From assembly GCA_001438605.1 (NCBI GenBank), contig LIDE01000024.1, forward strand, positions 1 through 55,240: a DNA stretch of 55,240 bases, in the 5' to 3' direction. A model generated the notes under the pieces. It saw only the letters and a program-made list of their open reading frames with translations, made no database searches and was not told the DNA's origin. A program made the translations under genes and the position numbers. Of this stretch, positions 7,313-42,701 are shown piece by piece. Position 1 is the stretch's first letter. Every line of letters begins with the position of its first letter. This stretch comes from SAR92 bacterium BACL16 MAG-120619-bin48. Lineage in GTDB: Bacteria > Pseudomonadota > Gammaproteobacteria > Pseudomonadales > Porticoccaceae.

Positions 7313-8167
7313 TTACTCAGCAAGCATTCGCATCGATAAATCCACCGCACGAATATGCTTGGTTAAGCTGCCCGATGAAATAAAGTTAATGACGGAATGA
7401 CTGTAGGCGCGCAGTTTTTCCTCGGTAATATCGCCGGAGACTTCAATTTTGGTATCGCCTAATTCAATCGTTGAGAGCGCTTCGATATCGGCGGGCGAGA
7501 AATTGTCCAGCATGACCACATCGGCTTTTGCCTGCAGCGCTTGATGCAGTTGGTCGATATTTTCCACCTCCACTTCAACGGCTTTTTGCGGTGCAATTTC
7601 ACGGGCGGTGGCTATGGCACTGGCTATGCTGCCGCAGGCGGCAATATGATTTTCTTTAATTAAAAATGCGTCGTACAGGCCAATGCGGTGGTTGTGACAG
7701 CCGCCAACGGTGACCGCGTATTTCTGTGCCAAGCGCAGGCCGGGTATGGTTTTGCGGGTGTCGAGAATCTTAATTGAGCTGCCGGGAACCACCGAGGCGT
7801 AGTGGTGCGCGGCGGTGGCGGTGGCTGAGAGGGTTTGCAAAAAGTTGAGGGCGACGCGCTCGCCGGTCAGCAGTGTTCGCGCATTGCCGCTGAGGGTAAA
7901 GAGCGTCTGATTGGCGTTAACCTTGTCACCTTCGGCCACGTGCCATTCGAGGGTTGTTGTGTTGTCGAGCTGACGGAACACTTCATCAACCCACGGGCGG
8001 CCGCAGACGATGGCTTCTTCGCGGGTAATCACCACGGCGCGGGCGGTTTTTTCAGCGGGTATTAGCTGTGCGGTGATGTCGCCGCTGCCGATATCTTCTT
8101 GCAGTGCGCGGGCGACGCAGTGAGGAATATCGCGAAAGGTTTCTGCGGATAAGGTGACGTTTGCCAT
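7313..8167 (-). CDS. nadC: Nicotinate-nucleotide pyrophosphorylase (carboxylating) NadC
   Basis: Quinolinate phosphoribosyltransferase of de novo NAD synthesis. From ATG 8167 it is 284 aa, the normal length. Signature stretches are [68 protein letters not shown] and SGSLTK, covering the phosphate- and quinolinate-binding Arg, Lys and His residues. An in-frame ATG at 8248 would add 27 residues without family resemblance, so I take the internal one ([11 protein letters not shown]). It is divergent from the DUF1631-like gene and convergent with pilA. Confidence 0.96.
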
Positions 8168-8366
8168 AGAAGTCTCGAGGTGCGTTGGGGCTTGGTTACA
8201 GGGCCGATTTTGTCTGGTCGAAAGTATAGCAGGAGTGTTTGAGCCCATGGCAGGATTGATTGCGCGGAGTTTTTTCTGATGGTTTATTTCAATTCGGGAA
8301 AGACCTCCTATACTTCATTAAAATACATGTGAACCTGTTCTCACTTAAACTGCCAACGGTACTTGT

Positions 8367-8432
8367 ATGAGTCGTGAAAAAGTATTGGTAGAGTTGTGCG
8401 AGGGACTTATGCCACAAGGTTGGCACAATTAA
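8367..8432 (+). other. Possible 21-residue leader ORF coupled to the DUF1631-like gene
   Basis: ATG at 8367 opens a short frame that begins MSREKVLVEL and ends GWHN; its TAA stop at 8430-8432 overlaps the ATG at 8432 as TAATG, a usual coupling arrangement. No strong ribosome site precedes it and no family is recognised. It may be chance, or it may be the true N-terminus of the next gene separated by another frame change. Confidence 0.3.
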
Positions 8433-9529
8433 TGATCAAAGGATCGGAACAATTACACGACAAGCTCGCAGTGGCGTTGGGCCAGACATGCCAACAGCAT
8501 CTTTCCGACGCGTTCAAAAAATTCTTCCAACTGGCGGCTAGCCAGCTTCCCGCGATGGCCATGACGGCCAAAAGCAATCGTCTGCAGACCCTGTTTTATG
8601 ACGCTCAACGTGTGCTGCGCAGTCAGCGGGCGGTTATTGAGAGTGCGGCGATTCAGTCGACGCAGCAGCATGTTTTTACTGCCTTTAATAAACCTGTGAA
8701 CAGAGAGATCGAGGATTACGGCACTGAATCGCCGTCAATCCTGAAAGCGCGGTCGCTTGAAAAACGTGACGGCGACAACCTGAAGTTGGTCGATGATGAC
8801 GACTTGGAGATGATGATTGCGCTGGATAATTGCTCGAGCCGTGTGCGTGAGCAGTTAAAAGCGGATCTCTACCAACTGGAGGGCCGTTTTCAGTCGTTAG
8901 TGGGAACCAAGGTGTCGATCAAAACACTGCCGCTGTCGCCTGATGCGCTGCTGGAGGGGTTTGTCACTGCAATTGCGCCTCATATCGCCGCGACCGATGT
9001 GCAGCTCACGCTGGTCGGTTTGTTTGATCAAGCCTTTTTCGCGACCTCCTACGGGCAAATGCTCGCCGCTGCTAACCAATTGCTCGATGATGCCGGTGTG
9101 ATGGTCGCCGAGAATCCCGATAAATTAGACGGTAAAAAACGCCCTCGCTCCGCTGTGAACGATGAGCCGGCAGAGTATGAGTACGAGCAAGCGAATGGTG
9201 GCCCAATGCAGCCTTCGCGTGTTCAAACACAGCTGCTGACGAGAATCGCCTCGCTGCTCGAAAACACTGACTATGAGAGTGCCGCGAGCAGCAGTGCGAC
9301 GATGCGTTCTCCTTTAGACAAAGCGTCCGCGCCACACAACAGCGCCCCTGAACAGGGAAAAAGAGCCAACGCAGCGCCAGCCGACACGGGCACAGAGCCT
9401 GATCATCGCGACGGTCGCGCCTGTTTAGATCGAACGCAATTATTTGACGAAATTAATACCCAGTTCCATAAACTCTTGGCCCGCGGCCCGCGGCCCGCAG
9501 TTGGCCAGTCATGGGCAATTGACCCGTGA
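8432..9529 (+). pseudogene. DUF1631-like protein, N-terminal fragment (frameshifted)
   Basis: By position between nadC and ampD, and by pattern, this is the first half of a DUF1631 (PF07793)-type protein, a family of about 750-800 residues with no settled function. The frame runs from ATG 8432 (an in-frame GTG at 8396 is possible) to a stop at 9527-9529, but its last dozen residues after HKLLARG are out-of-frame sequence. The recognisable part includes a Leu/Ala-rich helical N-terminus with YDAQRVLRSQRAVIES and an acidic DDDDLEMMIALDNC region. The frame is lost at three tandem copies of GGCCCGC (9478-9498); removal of one 7-base copy rejoins it to the second fragment and gives one 792-residue protein. 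Broken gene, phase-variable gene or sequence error remain open. Confidence 0.72.
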
Positions 9530-10817
9530 ACTCGCAGCCATGCTAAACCACTCCGATGCCGGGCACTCGCGCGGTCGTTTGCACCGCAATGACCAGAGCG
9601 TGTTTCAGGTGGTGGGCAATACCTTTGCCCAGTTTGGCGCCGCTGCGGCGCTTGCGCCCGAGGTGCAGCAGGTGATTAATCGCTGTGAAGTGCCCATGCT
9701 CAAGCTGGCTCTGAAAAAGCCATTAGTGTTGGAGCAGGAGAGCCATCCTATTCGCAGGCTGTTTAATGAGATGGCCAAGTACGCGATTGGCCTGGAGCAG
9801 GGCGATTGTGAGGACAATAAAATTTATCAGCAGATGCTGAAAATGTCTGAGTCAATGCTTGAGGATGGTTTTGGTGAACAGGATGTGCCGCGCCTGCTGA
9901 GTGAATTTATGGCGCTGATTGATCGCGATCGGCAGGTGACCTCGATGTTGGAGGAGCGCGAGATTGAGAAGGTTTCTGCTCAGGAAAAGGTGAATTGGGC
10001 GCGAACCCGTGTTGAAGAGGAAATTACCAAGCGCTTGCTGGGCAAGCATGTGCCCGAATTTGTCGTCGAATTTGTTCAGCGCAACTGGTGCATGGTGTTG
10101 CACATTGCCCACTTGCGCTCGGGCGAAGGGGGTGCGGACTGGATCGCAGCGCTGGTGATATTGGATCGGTTGATCGATCTCGCGCAGTGTGATGTCAGCG
10201 ATGGGGATTGGCATGCGCGGCACGATTTGCTCACTCAAATTAAGACTCGCTTGACGCATATTTCCACCGATCTGGCGCAGCGCTCGCTGCAGCTACAGCA
10301 ACTCAAACAGGCGCTCGGTGTCGATCGCCCGCTCCAGCCACTGTCGGAAGCGGGGGTGGCGACGATCTCCCCCATCAATCCTGCTATGAGGTCGAGACAG
10401 GAGCGTCACCCAGCGCGGCTGGCAGAGGAAAAGGCTGTTGCGGAAGTGAAGCGGGTGCTGGTGTCAGCGATAAAACTGCAGTTGCCCGGACACAATATCG
10501 CCGAGTCACTGCGCGATGCAGAGAGTCTTGATAGCGAGTCTCAACAGTGTTTGCGCGGGCTGCAAAAAGATTGCTGGATTGAATTGGGCGGTGATATAAA
10601 GGCGCATAAGCGTGGCAAGTTGGCGGGGATTGTTGGGCCGTCGTGGAAGTATGTGTTTGTCGACCACAAGGGCAAGCTGATTGCTGAGCGCGATCGTGCT
10701 AGGCTGGCGCTGGATATTATGCAGGGCAAAGTCACGGTGTTGGACAATTCCCATCTTTTCGATAAAGCCATTAAACAGGCAATTACTCAGATAAAAGGCT
10801 TGCCTGTTGCGAGCTGA
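9444..10817 (+). pseudogene. DUF1631-like protein, C-terminal fragment (frameshifted)
   Basis: Second half of the same gene in the +1 frame. The open frame nominally starts at ATG 9444, but residues before about 9499 are read from the wrong frame of the first fragment; genuine sequence starts near PQLASHGQLTRELAAML. It is rich in long helices (for example MLEEREIEKVSAQEKVNWAR) and ends with a compact domain, CWIELGGDIKAHKRGKLAGI then YVFVDHKGKLIAE and LFDKAIKQAI, which resembles the C-terminal region of DUF1631 proteins. The frame stays open for 457 codons without decay, so loss of reading frame, if real, is recent or reversible. ampD begins 12 bases downstream. Confidence 0.72.
9478..9498 (+). 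repeat. (GGCCCGC)x3 tandem repeat at the frameshift
   Basis: Three perfect head-to-tail copies of a 7-bp unit lie exactly where the two DUF1631 frames meet. Because 7 is 1 modulo 3, two copies put the downstream part in frame and three copies do not. With two copies the junction would read KLLARGPQLASHG. Confidence 0.97.
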
Positions 10818-10829
10818 TAGGCCGCTCAA

Positions 10830-11372
10830 ATGCACATTAATAACGGTTGGTTGACGCTTGCAGAGCGTATTTTGTCGCCCAATATTGACGACCGCCCCGA
10901 GGGCACTGCGATTGATTTATTGGTGATTCACAATATCAGTTTGCCGCCTAACCAGTTTGGCGGTGGTCATATCGCCGAGCTATTCACTAATTGTTTAAAT
11001 CCTGCTGCCGATGATTACTTTGCGGAAATTTGCGGTTTAAAAGTGTCTGCTCATTTACTCATAGATCGTCTGGGTGCCATTACACAATTTGCACCGTTTA
11101 CTCAGCGCGCGTGGCATGCGGGAGTGTCGCAGTTTTCTGGCCGCGAGCGCTGCAACGATTTTTCCATTGGCATTGAGTTGGAGGGTGCCGACCATATTCC
11201 GTACACCGACCGTCAATATGACGTGTTGGCTGCAGTCACTAAAGCGTTGCAGACGGAGTACCCCAATCTCCAAAACGATAAAATCGTCGGGCACAGCGAT
11301 ATTGCGCCGGGCCGCAAGACAGATCCGGGCGAGGCATTTGATTGGGCTCGCTATAAAAAGATGCTCGATTAA
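10830..11372 (+). CDS. ampD: 1,6-anhydro-N-acetylmuramyl-L-alanine amidase AmpD
   Basis: Cytoplasmic zinc amidase of peptidoglycan recycling; it cuts the stem peptide from anhydro-muropeptides and thereby keeps AmpR-type beta-lactamase induction off where that exists. Length 180 aa, typical. Zinc ligands are His34 (VIHNIS), His155 (VGHSDIAPGRKTDPG) and Asp165; Glu116 (GIELEG) and Lys163 complete the active site, one residue offset from the enterobacterial numbering. There is no signal peptide, which separates it from the periplasmic AmiD type. ampE follows. Confidence 0.96.
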   Translation: MHINNGWLTLAERILSPNIDDRPEGTAIDLLVIHNISLPPNQFGGGHIAELFTNCLNPAADDYFAEICGLKVSAHLLIDRLGAITQFAPFTQRAWHAGVSQFSGRERCNDFSIGIELEGADHIPYTDRQYDVLAAVTKALQTEYPNLQNDKIVGHSDIAPGRKTDPGEAFDWARYKKMLD

Positions 11373-11439: not shown

Positions 11440-12300
11440 GTGAGTTTTCTAATAGTTCTACTGGCGATTGTTGTGCTTGAAAGTAATGGCCAGCTGCCTT
11501 TTTTACAGCGCGATCAGTGGCTGCGGCAATGGCATGACCAACTGGTTGGCGTGTCTGTCTTGCGCGATTCTGCCACGCTGAGACTGGCTCTGTTTGTGAT
11601 TGCACCAGTGGCACTCTTGGTTTTCATTGTTGTGCAGCTGAGAAGCCACGAGTATGGACTGTTGCTGTTTGTCGTAGATTTGCTGGTTTTGCTCTACAGC
11701 TTTGGCCGCGGCGATCTCAAAGCCCAAATGGCCACTCTCGATGCCGATATTGCGCGAGACGATTTGCAGGCAGCATTTCACGATGCGGCGGTGTTTAACC
11801 TCGGCCACAGAGCGAGTTCTGCTGTGACCTCTGACGCTTTATTTGATGAGCTGACGCGCTCATTGCCCTACCGTATTTTTGAACGCACTTTTGCCCCGGT
11901 GTTTTTGTTCTTTTTCTTCGGCGCCCCGGCTGCGCTGGCCTACCGCTTGCTCGCACTTCATGGCGACATGGAGCTTGACCAAGACCCTGCAGAAACGGCT
12001 GACCCTGCGCCCAATACTGCAAACAAGATACTCTGGTTTTTTGAATGGCTTCCCTCCCGAGCGCTGGCGTTCACGCTGGGATTAATGGGTAATTTTTCGC
12101 ACACTGCCACACGCTTGCAAGAGCAGTTATTTTCCACCGAAACCAGCACAGCCGATCTGCTGCAGCAGTGTTTTTATGGTGCGTTGGGTGGCGTTGAAAA
12201 TGTGTCTGACAGCGATCTTGTTCCCCAGATGCGGGCGCTGTTTACCCGCGGCATTATGGCGTGGCTGGTGGTGATTGCGATTTTAGTGCTGGTCAGCTGA
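11440..12300 (+). CDS. ampE: Regulatory signalling modulator protein AmpE
   Basis: Inner-membrane protein always found with ampD; its exact activity is not settled. From GTG 11440 it is 286 aa (E. coli 284 aa) and begins MSFLIVLLAIVVLES, as expected, with a GGGG-type ribosome site just upstream; the TTG at 11428 would add four residues. Hydrophobic segments lie near the N-terminus, after LRLALFVIAPVALLVFIVVQ, around FAPVFLFFFFGAPAALAYRL and at the C-terminus (MAWLVVIAILVLVS). A conserved LFRGG-like FTRG and GALGGVEN appear near the end. Its last 18 bases overlap the end of ampG on the other strand. Confidence 0.9.
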   Translation: MSFLIVLLAIVVLESNGQLPFLQRDQWLRQWHDQLVGVSVLRDSATLRLALFVIAPVALLVFIVVQLRSHEYGLLLFVVDLLVLLYSFGRGDLKAQMATLDADIARDDLQAAFHDAAVFNLGHRASSAVTSDALFDELTRSLPYRIFERTFAPVFLFFFFGAPAALAYRLLALHGDMELDQDPAETADPAPNTANKILWFFEWLPSRALAFTLGLMGNFSHTATRLQEQLFSTETSTADLLQQCFYGALGGVENVSDSDLVPQMRALFTRGIMAWLVVIAILVLVS

Positions 12301-13554
12301 TAGCGCGGGTTTGGCGCCATTCCACGGCGCGACTTTCAGCAGCAGCACCATGCCTGGCACGGCAAGTGCGGTGCACAGATAAAAGAAATTTTCCCAGCCC
12401 GTTGTCTCAACAATCACCCCTGTGATGGAACTGGCGACGGTGCGCGGCACGGCCGTAATCGCGGTAAATAGCGCCAGTTGGGTGGCGGCATAGGCGGGGT
12501 GTGTGGTGCGCGCCATATAGGCGACAAACGCTGCCGTGCCAAGGCCGACGCCAAGATATTCAAAGCTGATCACCAGTGCCAGCAGCCACAATCCTTCGCC
12601 AACATTTGCGAGTAGCGCAAAGCCGAGAATTGAGACAATCTGCACCAAGCCAAACAGCCATAATGCACGGTTGATGCCTATTCTGAGCATCAGTAAACCG
12701 CCGACAATGCCCCCAAAAATCATCGGCCAGAGAGCGGCGTGTTTAGCGATTAAGCCAATCTCGGTCTTGCTAAACCCCAGGTCGAGGTAAAAGGGTGTCG
12801 CCAGCGCGGTGGCCATGCTGTCGCCGAGTTTGTAGAGCAGCATAAAAAGTAAAATGGCGAGGCCTTGGCGCGTGCCTTGGCGAGAAAAGAACTCTTTAAA
12901 CGGTTCTGTGACGGCAGCTTTTAAGGTGCTGGGCTGCCGTTTATCGACGGCAGGCTCGCCAATACTAAGGGTTAAGGCGATGCCGACCAGCATAAATGCG
13001 GCGGTAATGATAAACACCTGATGCCAGGGCAGGCTGTCGGCCAGGATCAGAGATAGTGAGCCGGGCACAAGGCCCGCTATCCGGTATGCGTTGACGTGGA
13101 TTGAGCTGCCGAGGCCGAGTTCATGGTCGGGCAGTAGTTGTCGGCGGTAAGCGTCCAGCACAATATCTTGGGTGGCGCTGAGAAAGGCGATGATGAGGCA
13201 GAGCCAGGCGATGGTCCAGATCTCGCTGGCGGCATTAAAAAAGCCCAGCGCTGCAATGGCGGCCAGCAGCAGTATTTGAGTGCCCAGCATCCAACCGCGG
13301 CGCAATCCCGGACGATAGCCTGCGAGGGAGAGCGGAAAGCGGTCAAGCAGCGGCGACCAGAGAAATTTCCAGGTGTAGGGCAGCCCAATAAGGGCGAAAA
13401 AGCCAATTTCTTTGAGACCGACCCCCTCTGACCGCAGCCATGCGGGAACCAGTGACACCAGCACATACAGCGGCATGCCAGAGGCCAAGCCGGTAAAAAT
13501 ACAGATCAACATACGGCGGTTTAAGACGGCCTGTTTAAACGTTACTGGGCCCAT
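12283..13554 (-). CDS. ampG: AmpG-family muropeptide permease (MFS)
   Basis: Major-facilitator protein predicted to import anhydro-muropeptides (GlcNAc-anhydroMurNAc peptides) from the periplasm for recycling. The N-terminal block FTGLASGMPLYVLVSLVPAW and LPYTWKFLWSPLLDRF is the AmpG hallmark. From ATG 13554 (MGPVTFKQAVL, with AAGGA 7 bases upstream) it is 423 aa with about 12 membrane helices, shorter than E. coli AmpG (491 aa, 14 helices). The open frame extends to 13689, but that start would overlap the neighbouring gene by more than 100 bases. Placed tail to tail with ampE, it brings uptake and AmpD processing into one locus. Confidence 0.9.
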   Translation of the reverse strand: MGPVTFKQAVLNRRMLICIFTGLASGMPLYVLVSLVPAWLRSEGVGLKEIGFFALIGLPYTWKFLWSPLLDRFPLSLAGYRPGLRRGWMLGTQILLLAAIAALGFFNAASEIWTIAWLCLIIAFLSATQDIVLDAYRRQLLPDHELGLGSSIHVNAYRIAGLVPGSLSLILADSLPWHQVFIITAAFMLVGIALTLSIGEPAVDKRQPSTLKAAVTEPFKEFFSRQGTRQGLAILLFMLLYKLGDSMATALATPFYLDLGFSKTEIGLIAKHAALWPMIFGGIVGGLLMLRIGINRALWLFGLVQIVSILGFALLANVGEGLWLLALVISFEYLGVGLGTAAFVAYMARTTHPAYAATQLALFTAITAVPRTVASSITGVIVETTGWENFFYLCTALAVPGMVLLLKVAPWNGAKPALSADQH

Positions 13555-13582: not shown

Positions 13583-14005
13583 TTACCCGTGCCATTGAAA
13601 TTGTTTGAGGTTAATGCGGTTGTTGATGACGTCAATGCCCTCGTCTTGTAAGCGCTTTTTTTGCACCTTAAAGCTTGGGCTATCCTCACTGAGACTTATT
13701 TTTCCCGCCGCATTAATCACCCTATGCCACGGCAATTGCGTATCGTCTGGCAGCTTGCTGAGGACTTGCCCGACCAGTCGTGCGGCCCTCGGCAGCGCTG
13801 CGAGCTCTGCAATTTGGCCGTAGGTTGCGACCTTGCCGGCGGGTATTGCTGCTAGGGCACTGTAGATGCGCTGTTCGTTTGTCTGCCACTCGCTCAAGGC
13901 TGTTGTCTGCCACTCGCTCAAGGCTGTTGTTTGCCCTTTGCTCTGGGTTGTCGCTGCCCCTTGGCTCTTAGTCATAAACGATAAATTAGCGCGCCTATTT
14001 TTCAT
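13583..14005 (-). CDS. Alkyltransferase-like (ATL) DNA-repair protein, MGMT family
   Basis: Resembles the C-terminal DNA-binding domain of O6-alkylguanine alkyltransferase: VATYGQIAELAALPRAARLVG (helix-turn-helix with the Arg finger) and LPWHRVINAAGKIS. The reactive Cys of the PCHRV motif is replaced by Trp, so it cannot repair by alkyl transfer; ATL proteins bind O6-alkylguanine and pass the lesion to nucleotide-excision repair. The homologous part is about 100 aa. In front is a tail with two exact TTALSEWQ repeats (24-bp DNA repeats). The start is uncertain: ATG 14005 or ATG 13975. ampG lies 28 bases downstream on the same strand. Confidence 0.88.
   Translation of the reverse strand: MKNRRANLSFMTKSQGAATTQSKGQTTALSEWQTTALSEWQTNEQRIYSALAAIPAGKVATYGQIAELAALPRAARLVGQVLSKLPDDTQLPWHRVINAAGKISLSEDSPSFKVQKKRLQDEGIDVINNRINLKQFQWHG
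13881..13952. repeat. 24-bp in-frame tandem repeat in the ATL gene
   Basis: Two perfect 24-base copies (13881-13904 and 13905-13928) are followed by a degenerate third (13929-13952). They encode the duplicated TTALSEWQ in the N-terminal tail of the ATL protein; being a multiple of three, copy changes would keep the frame. Confidence 0.9.
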
Positions 14006-41110: not shown

Positions 41111-41164
41111 TCTATTTCCCGCTCTAAATTTCCCGCTCTAAATTTCCCACTCTAAATTTCACAC
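41111..41164. repeat. 14-bp tandem repeat between the orphan pair and comM
   Basis: Four head-to-tail copies of TCTAAATTTCCCGC (first copy short by two bases, last two with A for G and further change) end one base before the comM stop codon. The remainder of the 163-base gap has no recognised feature. Confidence 0.9.
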
Positions 41165-41165
41165 C

Positions 41166-42701
41166 CTAACTGGTCTCTTTTGTGTCAGAGGTAATTCGGT
41201 AGCTGAGGGCCTCTTGATAGTCTGCAGTTTTTACCTCATGTCTGTTCTCTAAGTCCGCAATACTTCTTGCGACTCTTAATACGCGATAAAACCCTCTGGT
41301 GGACAGGGCGAAGCGATTGATGGCGCTGTCCATTAGCGCCTGCTGTTCGGTATTGAGACGGCAGATAGTTCTGAGTTCTTGGCTGCTAAGTTGGCTGTTG
41401 ATCTTTCCCTGACGCTCTATTTGGCGTTCGCGCGCATCACTTATGCGTTGATGAATATCTCTATCGCTTTCACCCTGCGGCTTTTCGCTCTGATTTAATA
41501 ATTGTTTGTTGTCTATTTTTGTTACCTGCACCTGCAGGTCGATGCGGTCGAGTAGTGGGCCAGATATTTTACTGCGGTAACGGTTTATTTGATCGGGGGT
41601 GCAGCGGCACCGGGAGCTGCCTAAAAATCCACAGGGGCAGGGGTTCATGGCGGCGATAAGTTGGAAGTTGGCCGGAAAACATATTTGTGCGGCGATGCGG
41701 GAAATCATTATTTCACCAGATTCCATAGGTTCGCGCAGAACTTCGAGGACTTTGCGGGAAAACTCGGGAAGTTCATCGAGAAACAAAACGCCTTCGTGGG
41801 CGAGGGAGATTTCGCCGGGCCGCGGTGAGCTTCCCCCTCCGACTAGTGCGGCGGCTGAAGCGGTGTGGTGCGGTGCGCGAAAGGGGCGCGACCAGACGGA
41901 TGGCCGCAGACCTTTGCCTGCGACGGAATACAGTGCGGCCACTTCAAGGGCTTGTTGATTGGTGAGAATAGGCAGAATGCCGGGCAATCGGCTCGCCAGC
42001 ATGGTTTTTCCAGTGCCCGGTGGGCCGTAAAAAAGCAGGTTGTGGCCTCCGCTGGCGGCTATTTCTAGGGCGCGTTTGGCATGGTGTTGACCGATGACTT
42101 CATTGAGTTGTGTTGCTTGAATATCGCTGTCTGCGCTGGTGCCGCTGGGCGGGGCTGCTGCGTTGCTGCGCGACCATTCGGTGAGCAGTTGCCGTTGGTG
42201 CAAGTGTGCCGATATTTCTAACAGGTGTTTGGCTGGCAGTATGGTGAGATTGTCGACCAGCGACGCCTCTGCGGCATTGCTATGGCCAATCAGCAGTGTT
42301 TTGCCGCGCTCAGCGCAGCGCAGGGCGGCGGGCAGCACTGCATCAACGCCTCGCACTTCCCCTGACAGGGCGAGTTCACCGATAAATTCAAAGTCTTCTA
42401 GTTGATCTGCAGGCACTTGGCCGGAGGCGGCGAGGATAGCGATGGCGATGGCGATATCAAAACGGCTGCCTTCTTTGGGCAGGTCAGCGGGGGCGAGATT
42501 GACGGTGATTCGGCGTGCGGGGAAGTCAAAATGCGAGTTGATAATGGCGCTGCGCACACGATCTTTGCTTTCTTTTACCGCGGTTTCAGGAAGCCCAACC
42601 ATATGCATGCTGGGCAGGCCGTTGGAGAGATGAACCTCAACCGAGACCAAGGGTGCGTTGATACCGAGTTTGGCGCGGGTGTGGACAACGGCGAGTGACA
42701 T
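41166..42701 (-). CDS. comM: ComM/YifB family Mg-chelatase-like AAA+ ATPase
   Basis: Hexameric helicase that widens branch migration of incoming DNA during natural transformation (Vibrio, Acinetobacter), conserved also in non-transformers. The 511 aa (E. coli YifB 506) show the N-terminal Lon-like ChlI domain (LSNGLPSMHMVGLPETAVKESKDRVRSA), Walker A FYGPPGTGKTMLASRLPGILP, Walker B HEGVLFLDELPEFSRKVLEVLREPMESG, a zinc-type NPCPCGFLGSSRCRC and C-terminal helices with STRGFYRVLRVARSIADL. Together with the type IV pilus genes earlier in the window it is compatible with DNA uptake, but no comEA/comEC is seen. Confidence 0.95.
   Translation of the reverse strand: MSLAVVHTRAKLGINAPLVSVEVHLSNGLPSMHMVGLPETAVKESKDRVRSAIINSHFDFPARRITVNLAPADLPKEGSRFDIAIAIAILAASGQVPADQLEDFEFIGELALSGEVRGVDAVLPAALRCAERGKTLLIGHSNAAEASLVDNLTILPAKHLLEISAHLHQRQLLTEWSRSNAAAPPSGTSADSDIQATQLNEVIGQHHAKRALEIAASGGHNLLFYGPPGTGKTMLASRLPGILPILTNQQALEVAALYSVAGKGLRPSVWSRPFRAPHHTASAAALVGGGSSPRPGEISLAHEGVLFLDELPEFSRKVLEVLREPMESGEIMISRIAAQICFPANFQLIAAMNPCPCGFLGSSRCRCTPDQINRYRSKISGPLLDRIDLQVQVTKIDNKQLLNQSEKPQGESDRDIHQRISDARERQIERQGKINSQLSSQELRTICRLNTEQQALMDSAINRFALSTRGFYRVLRVARSIADLENRHEVKTADYQEALSYRITSDTKETS

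Follow-up and report, generated by a model that had tools for sequence, protein, structure and literature searches.

A heptanucleotide repeat at the frame break of a DUF1631 gene in a SAR92 bacterium: probable early gene loss in a marine genus

The DUF1631 gene of SAR92 bacterium BACL16 MAG-120619-bin48 changes reading frame exactly where three perfect tandem copies of GGCCCGC stand (positions 9478-9498 on the forward strand of the window, by which we mean the whole 55,240-nucleotide stretch of DNA analyzed here). Since DUF1631 is dispensable in the genus and has been lost there several times, the lesion most likely represents early gene loss, and we consider it probable that a two-copy tract present by chance underwent a recent slipped-strand duplication, with which another loss of this gene began. 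According to this scenario, base substitutions in this lineage would have made a chance two-copy GGCCCGC tract, replication slippage would have added the third unit and put DUF1631 out of frame, and translation from the normal start would now yield no more than a truncated product of 365 residues. The lesion would thus be an early, nearly neutral stage of losing DUF1631, and not an evolved switch. Comparison of sequences points to this order (the two-copy tract first, the third copy later) and to slippage as the source of the third copy; the break would be real and fixed in the population, the gene presumably being no longer needed. A slipped-strand duplication in a dispensable gene explains all of the observations described below without any special mechanism.

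The locus has the likeness of an incipient bacterial pseudogene formed by short tandem duplication, with its small duplication of non-triplet length, a gene undecayed in every other respect and a genus that repeatedly loses the same gene, and we found no difference from this type. It offers a compact series of stages of gene loss (frameshift, multiple lesions, remnant, and gap) between two fixed neighbours within one marine genus. The pattern of a repeat at a frameshift can be weighed by relatives alone, using the site length, the conservation of the repeat, the genomic repeat background, and what has become of the gene in kin.

The repeat tract and the two reading frames

The window belongs to a draft genome of 2.53 Mb, whose named relatives are marine Porticoccaceae and uncultured Pseudomonadales, including HTCC2207 and MOLA455. 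One DUF1631 gene was detected in this genome, its locus being at the tract, and the broken gene sits between full-length nadC and ampD genes (Table 1). Both halves score above the Pfam gathering score of 33.7 bits for PF07793, with the upstream ORF matching profile positions 7-288 (E 4.2e-37, 128.5 bits) and the downstream ORF matching positions 325-739 (E 3.1e-62, 211.5 bits). The upstream frame begins with the ATG at 8432, crosses the tract and terminates at 9527-9529, and the downstream frame has no stop until 10817.

Table 1. Features of the DUF1631 locus in the window
Feature	Position	Strand	Basis
nadC (quinolinate phosphoribosyltransferase), intact flank	7313..8248	-	Pfam PF01729 and PF02749
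DUF1631 5' part (broken gene); frame of 365 codons, final 14 codons out of register	8432..9529	+	ORF, Pfam
GGCCCGC x3, perfect tandem copies, frame-change site	9478..9498	+	sequence
DUF1631 3' part, in the second frame, uninterrupted as far as the normal stop	9501..10817	+	ORF, Pfam, relatives
ampD-like N-acetylmuramoyl-L-alanine amidase, intact flank	10830..11372	+	Pfam PF01510; neighbour across the genus

The first-pass annotation of this DNA had placed three GGCCCGC copies at the frame change of a DUF1631-like gene and predicted that two copies would give a single frame of 792 codons. The position and the general geometry are borne out, as a tandem repeat of a non-triplet unit does stand at the frame change. 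The predicted length fits as well: the interval that runs from the conserved EI to the conserved GQ is 70 bases long in the window, versus 63 (21 residues) in the nearest relatives, and the site length corresponds to a tract one unit shorter in all 11 relatives of the nearest clade. In length these 11 genomes agree with a two-copy tract, but GGCCCGC itself is present in none of them. Indeed, we found no GGCCCGC within 60 bases of the site, on either strand, in any of 18 relatives (11 nearest and 7 outer), and the retention in related genomes that marks an SSR contingency locus is therefore missing. Given this absence, the two-copy tract seems to be new to this lineage and to have been built by substitutions.

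The two-copy GGCCCGC pattern occurs at a single site in the 2.53-Mb genome, namely here, and the pattern with one mismatch allowed has on average 0.03 matches in the shuffled window. The tract showed no excess of DNA hairpin formation (z -0.77; 40 of 200 shuffles fold equally well). For the wider background of short tandem repeats, we used 255,240 bases of the same genome (the window and 12 further stretches). This sample contains 13 perfect heptamer tracts of at least two copies, including the GGCCCGC tract, versus 14.3 in simulated sequence; at such a chance frequency, the raw material for slips of this kind is ordinary. Tracts with three copies of a unit of 4-12 bases number three in the sample (two tetramers and the GGCCCGC heptamer). 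No other three-copy heptamer tract was found there, nor did any appear in ten first-order simulations, each of the size of the 255-kb sample. Somewhat more were counted in 198 kb from four relatives (G022, G017, G002, and G033), which hold eight three-copy tracts of this unit range, including two octamers. These counts suggest nothing in the sampled genome that points to a set of contingency loci. A mutS-like gene is present; since loops of seven bases are not expected to be targets of mismatch repair, this gene says little about the stability of the tract.

Two other repeats were observed in the window. Approximately 3.4-4 tandem copies of the 14-base unit ATTTCCCGCTCTAA lie at 41114-41169 with 92-96 percent matches. 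At 13879-13935, close to the beginning of a reverse-strand ORF (13583-14005), a 24-base unit occurs in 2.4 copies that keep the frame (LSEWQTTA repeats).

Fate of the gene in the genus and the order

Of 50 genomes of the genus, 40 (including the one studied here) yielded an ampD. We took the nadC-ampD locus from 38 of the 39 others (G031, with ampD at a contig end, was left out), giving 39 loci together with the window. DUF1631 is open in 14 of these, openness being assessed between the first matched residue and the end without regard to the start codon, and it forms one uninterrupted frame in the 14 open relatives. In G001 the gene is open but interrupted by the contig end. G056 has an in-frame TAG at codon 9 (L008 1840) with an in-frame ATG a few codons on, which may reflect a shorter start or another break. 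Frameshifted copies appear in three of the 39 loci, each in a different place: besides the window, G017 has a one-base frameshift approximately 150 codons further on than the tract site, and in G029 a deletion of approximately 97 bases shifts the frame, with an in-frame stop earlier as well. Further decay is seen in G028 (several stops, 5' half not recognisable) and in G025 (a short remnant, E 0.002). Seventeen of the 39 loci have no DUF1631 match at E 0.01; in these, the nadC and ampD matches lie 123-322 bases apart. The locus of G024 is uninformative, its contig stopping 43 bases before ampD.

On a tree of nadC and ampD, the presence of DUF1631 has to change four times, at least three of them by well-supported branches, when G024 is scored as absent (its sister G068 also lacks the gene), the decayed copy of G028 as present, and the remnant of G025 as absent. 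Of 37 genomes sampled from the order, 31 have PF07793 (the one studied here included), and ampD lies beside DUF1631 in 7 of 14 loci taken from other families. The changes are therefore most simply explained as losses, and on these comparisons DUF1631 looks ancestral in this group. With 17 of 39 loci lacking a match, two decayed remnants, and three to four changes on the tree, the gene is dispensable or lost in the group. At closer range, it is present in all 12 members of the clade that includes the window, and 10 of the 12 have no frame break, though these 10 include the genome with the early TAG and the one whose gene runs off its contig. Its presence throughout the immediate clade makes the gene seem useful to close kin; this counts against the early-loss reading, as does the pristine state of both halves in the window.

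Age of the break and competing explanations

No stop is present in either half of the window's DUF1631 gene. Stop-creating substitutions carry a summed weight of 84.8 per unit of divergence, counting substitutions only, and a neutral divergence above approximately 3.5 percent would probably have left a stop. In a branch model, omega for the C half was 0.13 on the window branch versus 0.093 elsewhere (2dlnL 2.2, not significant), and the N half gave a loose estimate of 0.21 versus 0.23 (2dlnL 0.03), these values being averages over a long branch and blind to the period after the break. Fixing omega at 1 was worse by approximately 44 log units for the C half and 12 for the N half. Nine of the 11 nearest relatives entered the model, which excluded G017 and G001 and retained G056 with its early TAG; the topology was fixed, and its support for the window's sister is poor (59/81). 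Both halves have thus been under purifying selection on average, and this, together with the absence of stops, indicates that the break is recent. If the sequence is right, a gene that relatives keep intact has been disabled in this genome.

The main rival to slippage and loss is an error of sequencing or assembly, with the third GGCCCGC unit absent from the cell and the gene intact. We regard this as unlikely. Its rank comes from the frequency of errors among lone frame breaks; in the accessible part of PMC3711429, singleton frameshifts validated by BLASTp are expected to be sequencing errors and not genuine indels. The break studied here stands alone in a gene that is conserved apart from it, and the genome is a draft (111 contigs, a count that may not be natural). 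The sizes of contigs C1-C12 (L134-L145) of this genome recur, with 10000 for C1, C4, C7, and C10 and 90000 for C3, C6, C9, and C12, as if cut at round values. Assemblies of relatives are broken in frame even in conserved neighbours (nadC of G016, L112; ampD of G058, L106), and so some of the frame breaks seen in relatives may themselves be errors. However, exact duplication of a whole 7-base unit is typical of slippage and odd as a sequencing error, and reads of common length exceed a tract of 21 bases. Moreover, DUF1631 alone is clearly split within the 41.3 kb of the window covered by ORFs of relatives; no other clear frame break was found there, and a weak two-frame match at 12220-12559 lies near the ends of two converging genes.

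Phase variation would require a unit to be gained and lost at the tract so frequently that both ON and OFF cells persist in the population, which we think improbable. In favour of it, the unit is not a multiple of three and both DUF1631 halves are intact, the first-pass annotation having correctly called them undecayed. Three heptamers might be unstable, given that Table 1 of PMC4235727, an excerpt of which lists at least three copies of one pentanucleotide (GACGA) as hypermutable, provides a precedent. Heptanucleotide tracts also exist in Haemophilus influenzae, where, according to the portion of PMC2651432 available, they are thought to mediate phase variation; they lie in the hmw1A and hmw2A promoters, the hmw1A ORF, and an HI1369-type ORF. 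The DUF1631 tract resembles these loci in its 7-base unit and in that copy number sets the frame in their ORF cases. In contrast, the same text gives strain-variable tracts of mostly 8-38 copies, with one (AACAACC)1-7, whereas the DUF1631 tract has three copies and lies mid-gene. The partial text of PMC4235727 places tetramers at 2-4 copies in the least mutable class of its review table, and work cited in the available section of PMC4692102 has coding-region SSRs suppressed mid-gene and enriched near the ends. Phase variation, as defined in an excerpt of the later review PMC11868660, requires switching in both directions above a threshold rate, generally detectable without selection.

The claim of a contingency locus thus fares poorly: the repeat is missing at the site in 18 relatives, there is no surplus of such tracts in 255 kb of the genome, and the tract lies mid-gene, leaving the switch reading weakly supported. 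Relatives with decayed fragments and no variation had been named beforehand as the finding that would speak against it; decayed fragments there are, the genus losing the gene by other lesions elsewhere. A young contingency locus, in which a chance heptamer tract in one species toggles a gene that its kin keep or delete, also appears doubtful to us; if true, both states in one population would be an intermediate between keeping and losing DUF1631.

A functional split into two proteins through re-initiation, or recoding by programmed frameshifting at the tract, is very improbable: coupled re-initiation is conceivable from a downstream-frame ATG at 9540, 10 bases past the upstream stop, and the C half shows purifying selection on average, but no Shine-Dalgarno-like sequence precedes 9540 and the break falls at the edge of a well-conserved block (both judged by eye), the 14 open relatives keep a single frame, and G017 and G029 are broken at other places.

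Protein and sequences around the gene

DUF1631 is described in Pfam as a protein of unknown function. A gene function already tied to phase variation is one criterion for phase variation in the accessible text of PMC3711429. PA4523 is presumably the Pseudomonas aeruginosa equivalent of this gene. Induction of PA4523 at biofilm dispersal is reported in the available part of PMC13128677. An AlphaFold model of the L005 relative, made with eight other sequences, had a mean pLDDT of 51.9 and a pTM of 0.31, values too low to support a fold search. In the region 8200-10900, no promoter-like sites were found, and terminator-like sites numbered 7 versus 2.8 expected. Viral contigs gave no relative, and plasmids no match.

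Just 5' of the DUF1631 start, at 8411-8424, lies a short inverted repeat of the form GCCA-N(6-7)-TGGC with a mostly purine loop. It occurs no more than 60 bases 5' of the first matched DUF1631 codon in all 16 relatives tested (G001 and G058 were left out), and the predicted hairpin may expose or hide the ribosome-binding site, as do sites of RNA-binding regulators. In addition, a 21-codon upstream reading frame at 8367-8432 overlaps the DUF1631 start codon (TAATG), an arrangement that suggests possible translational coupling between the two.
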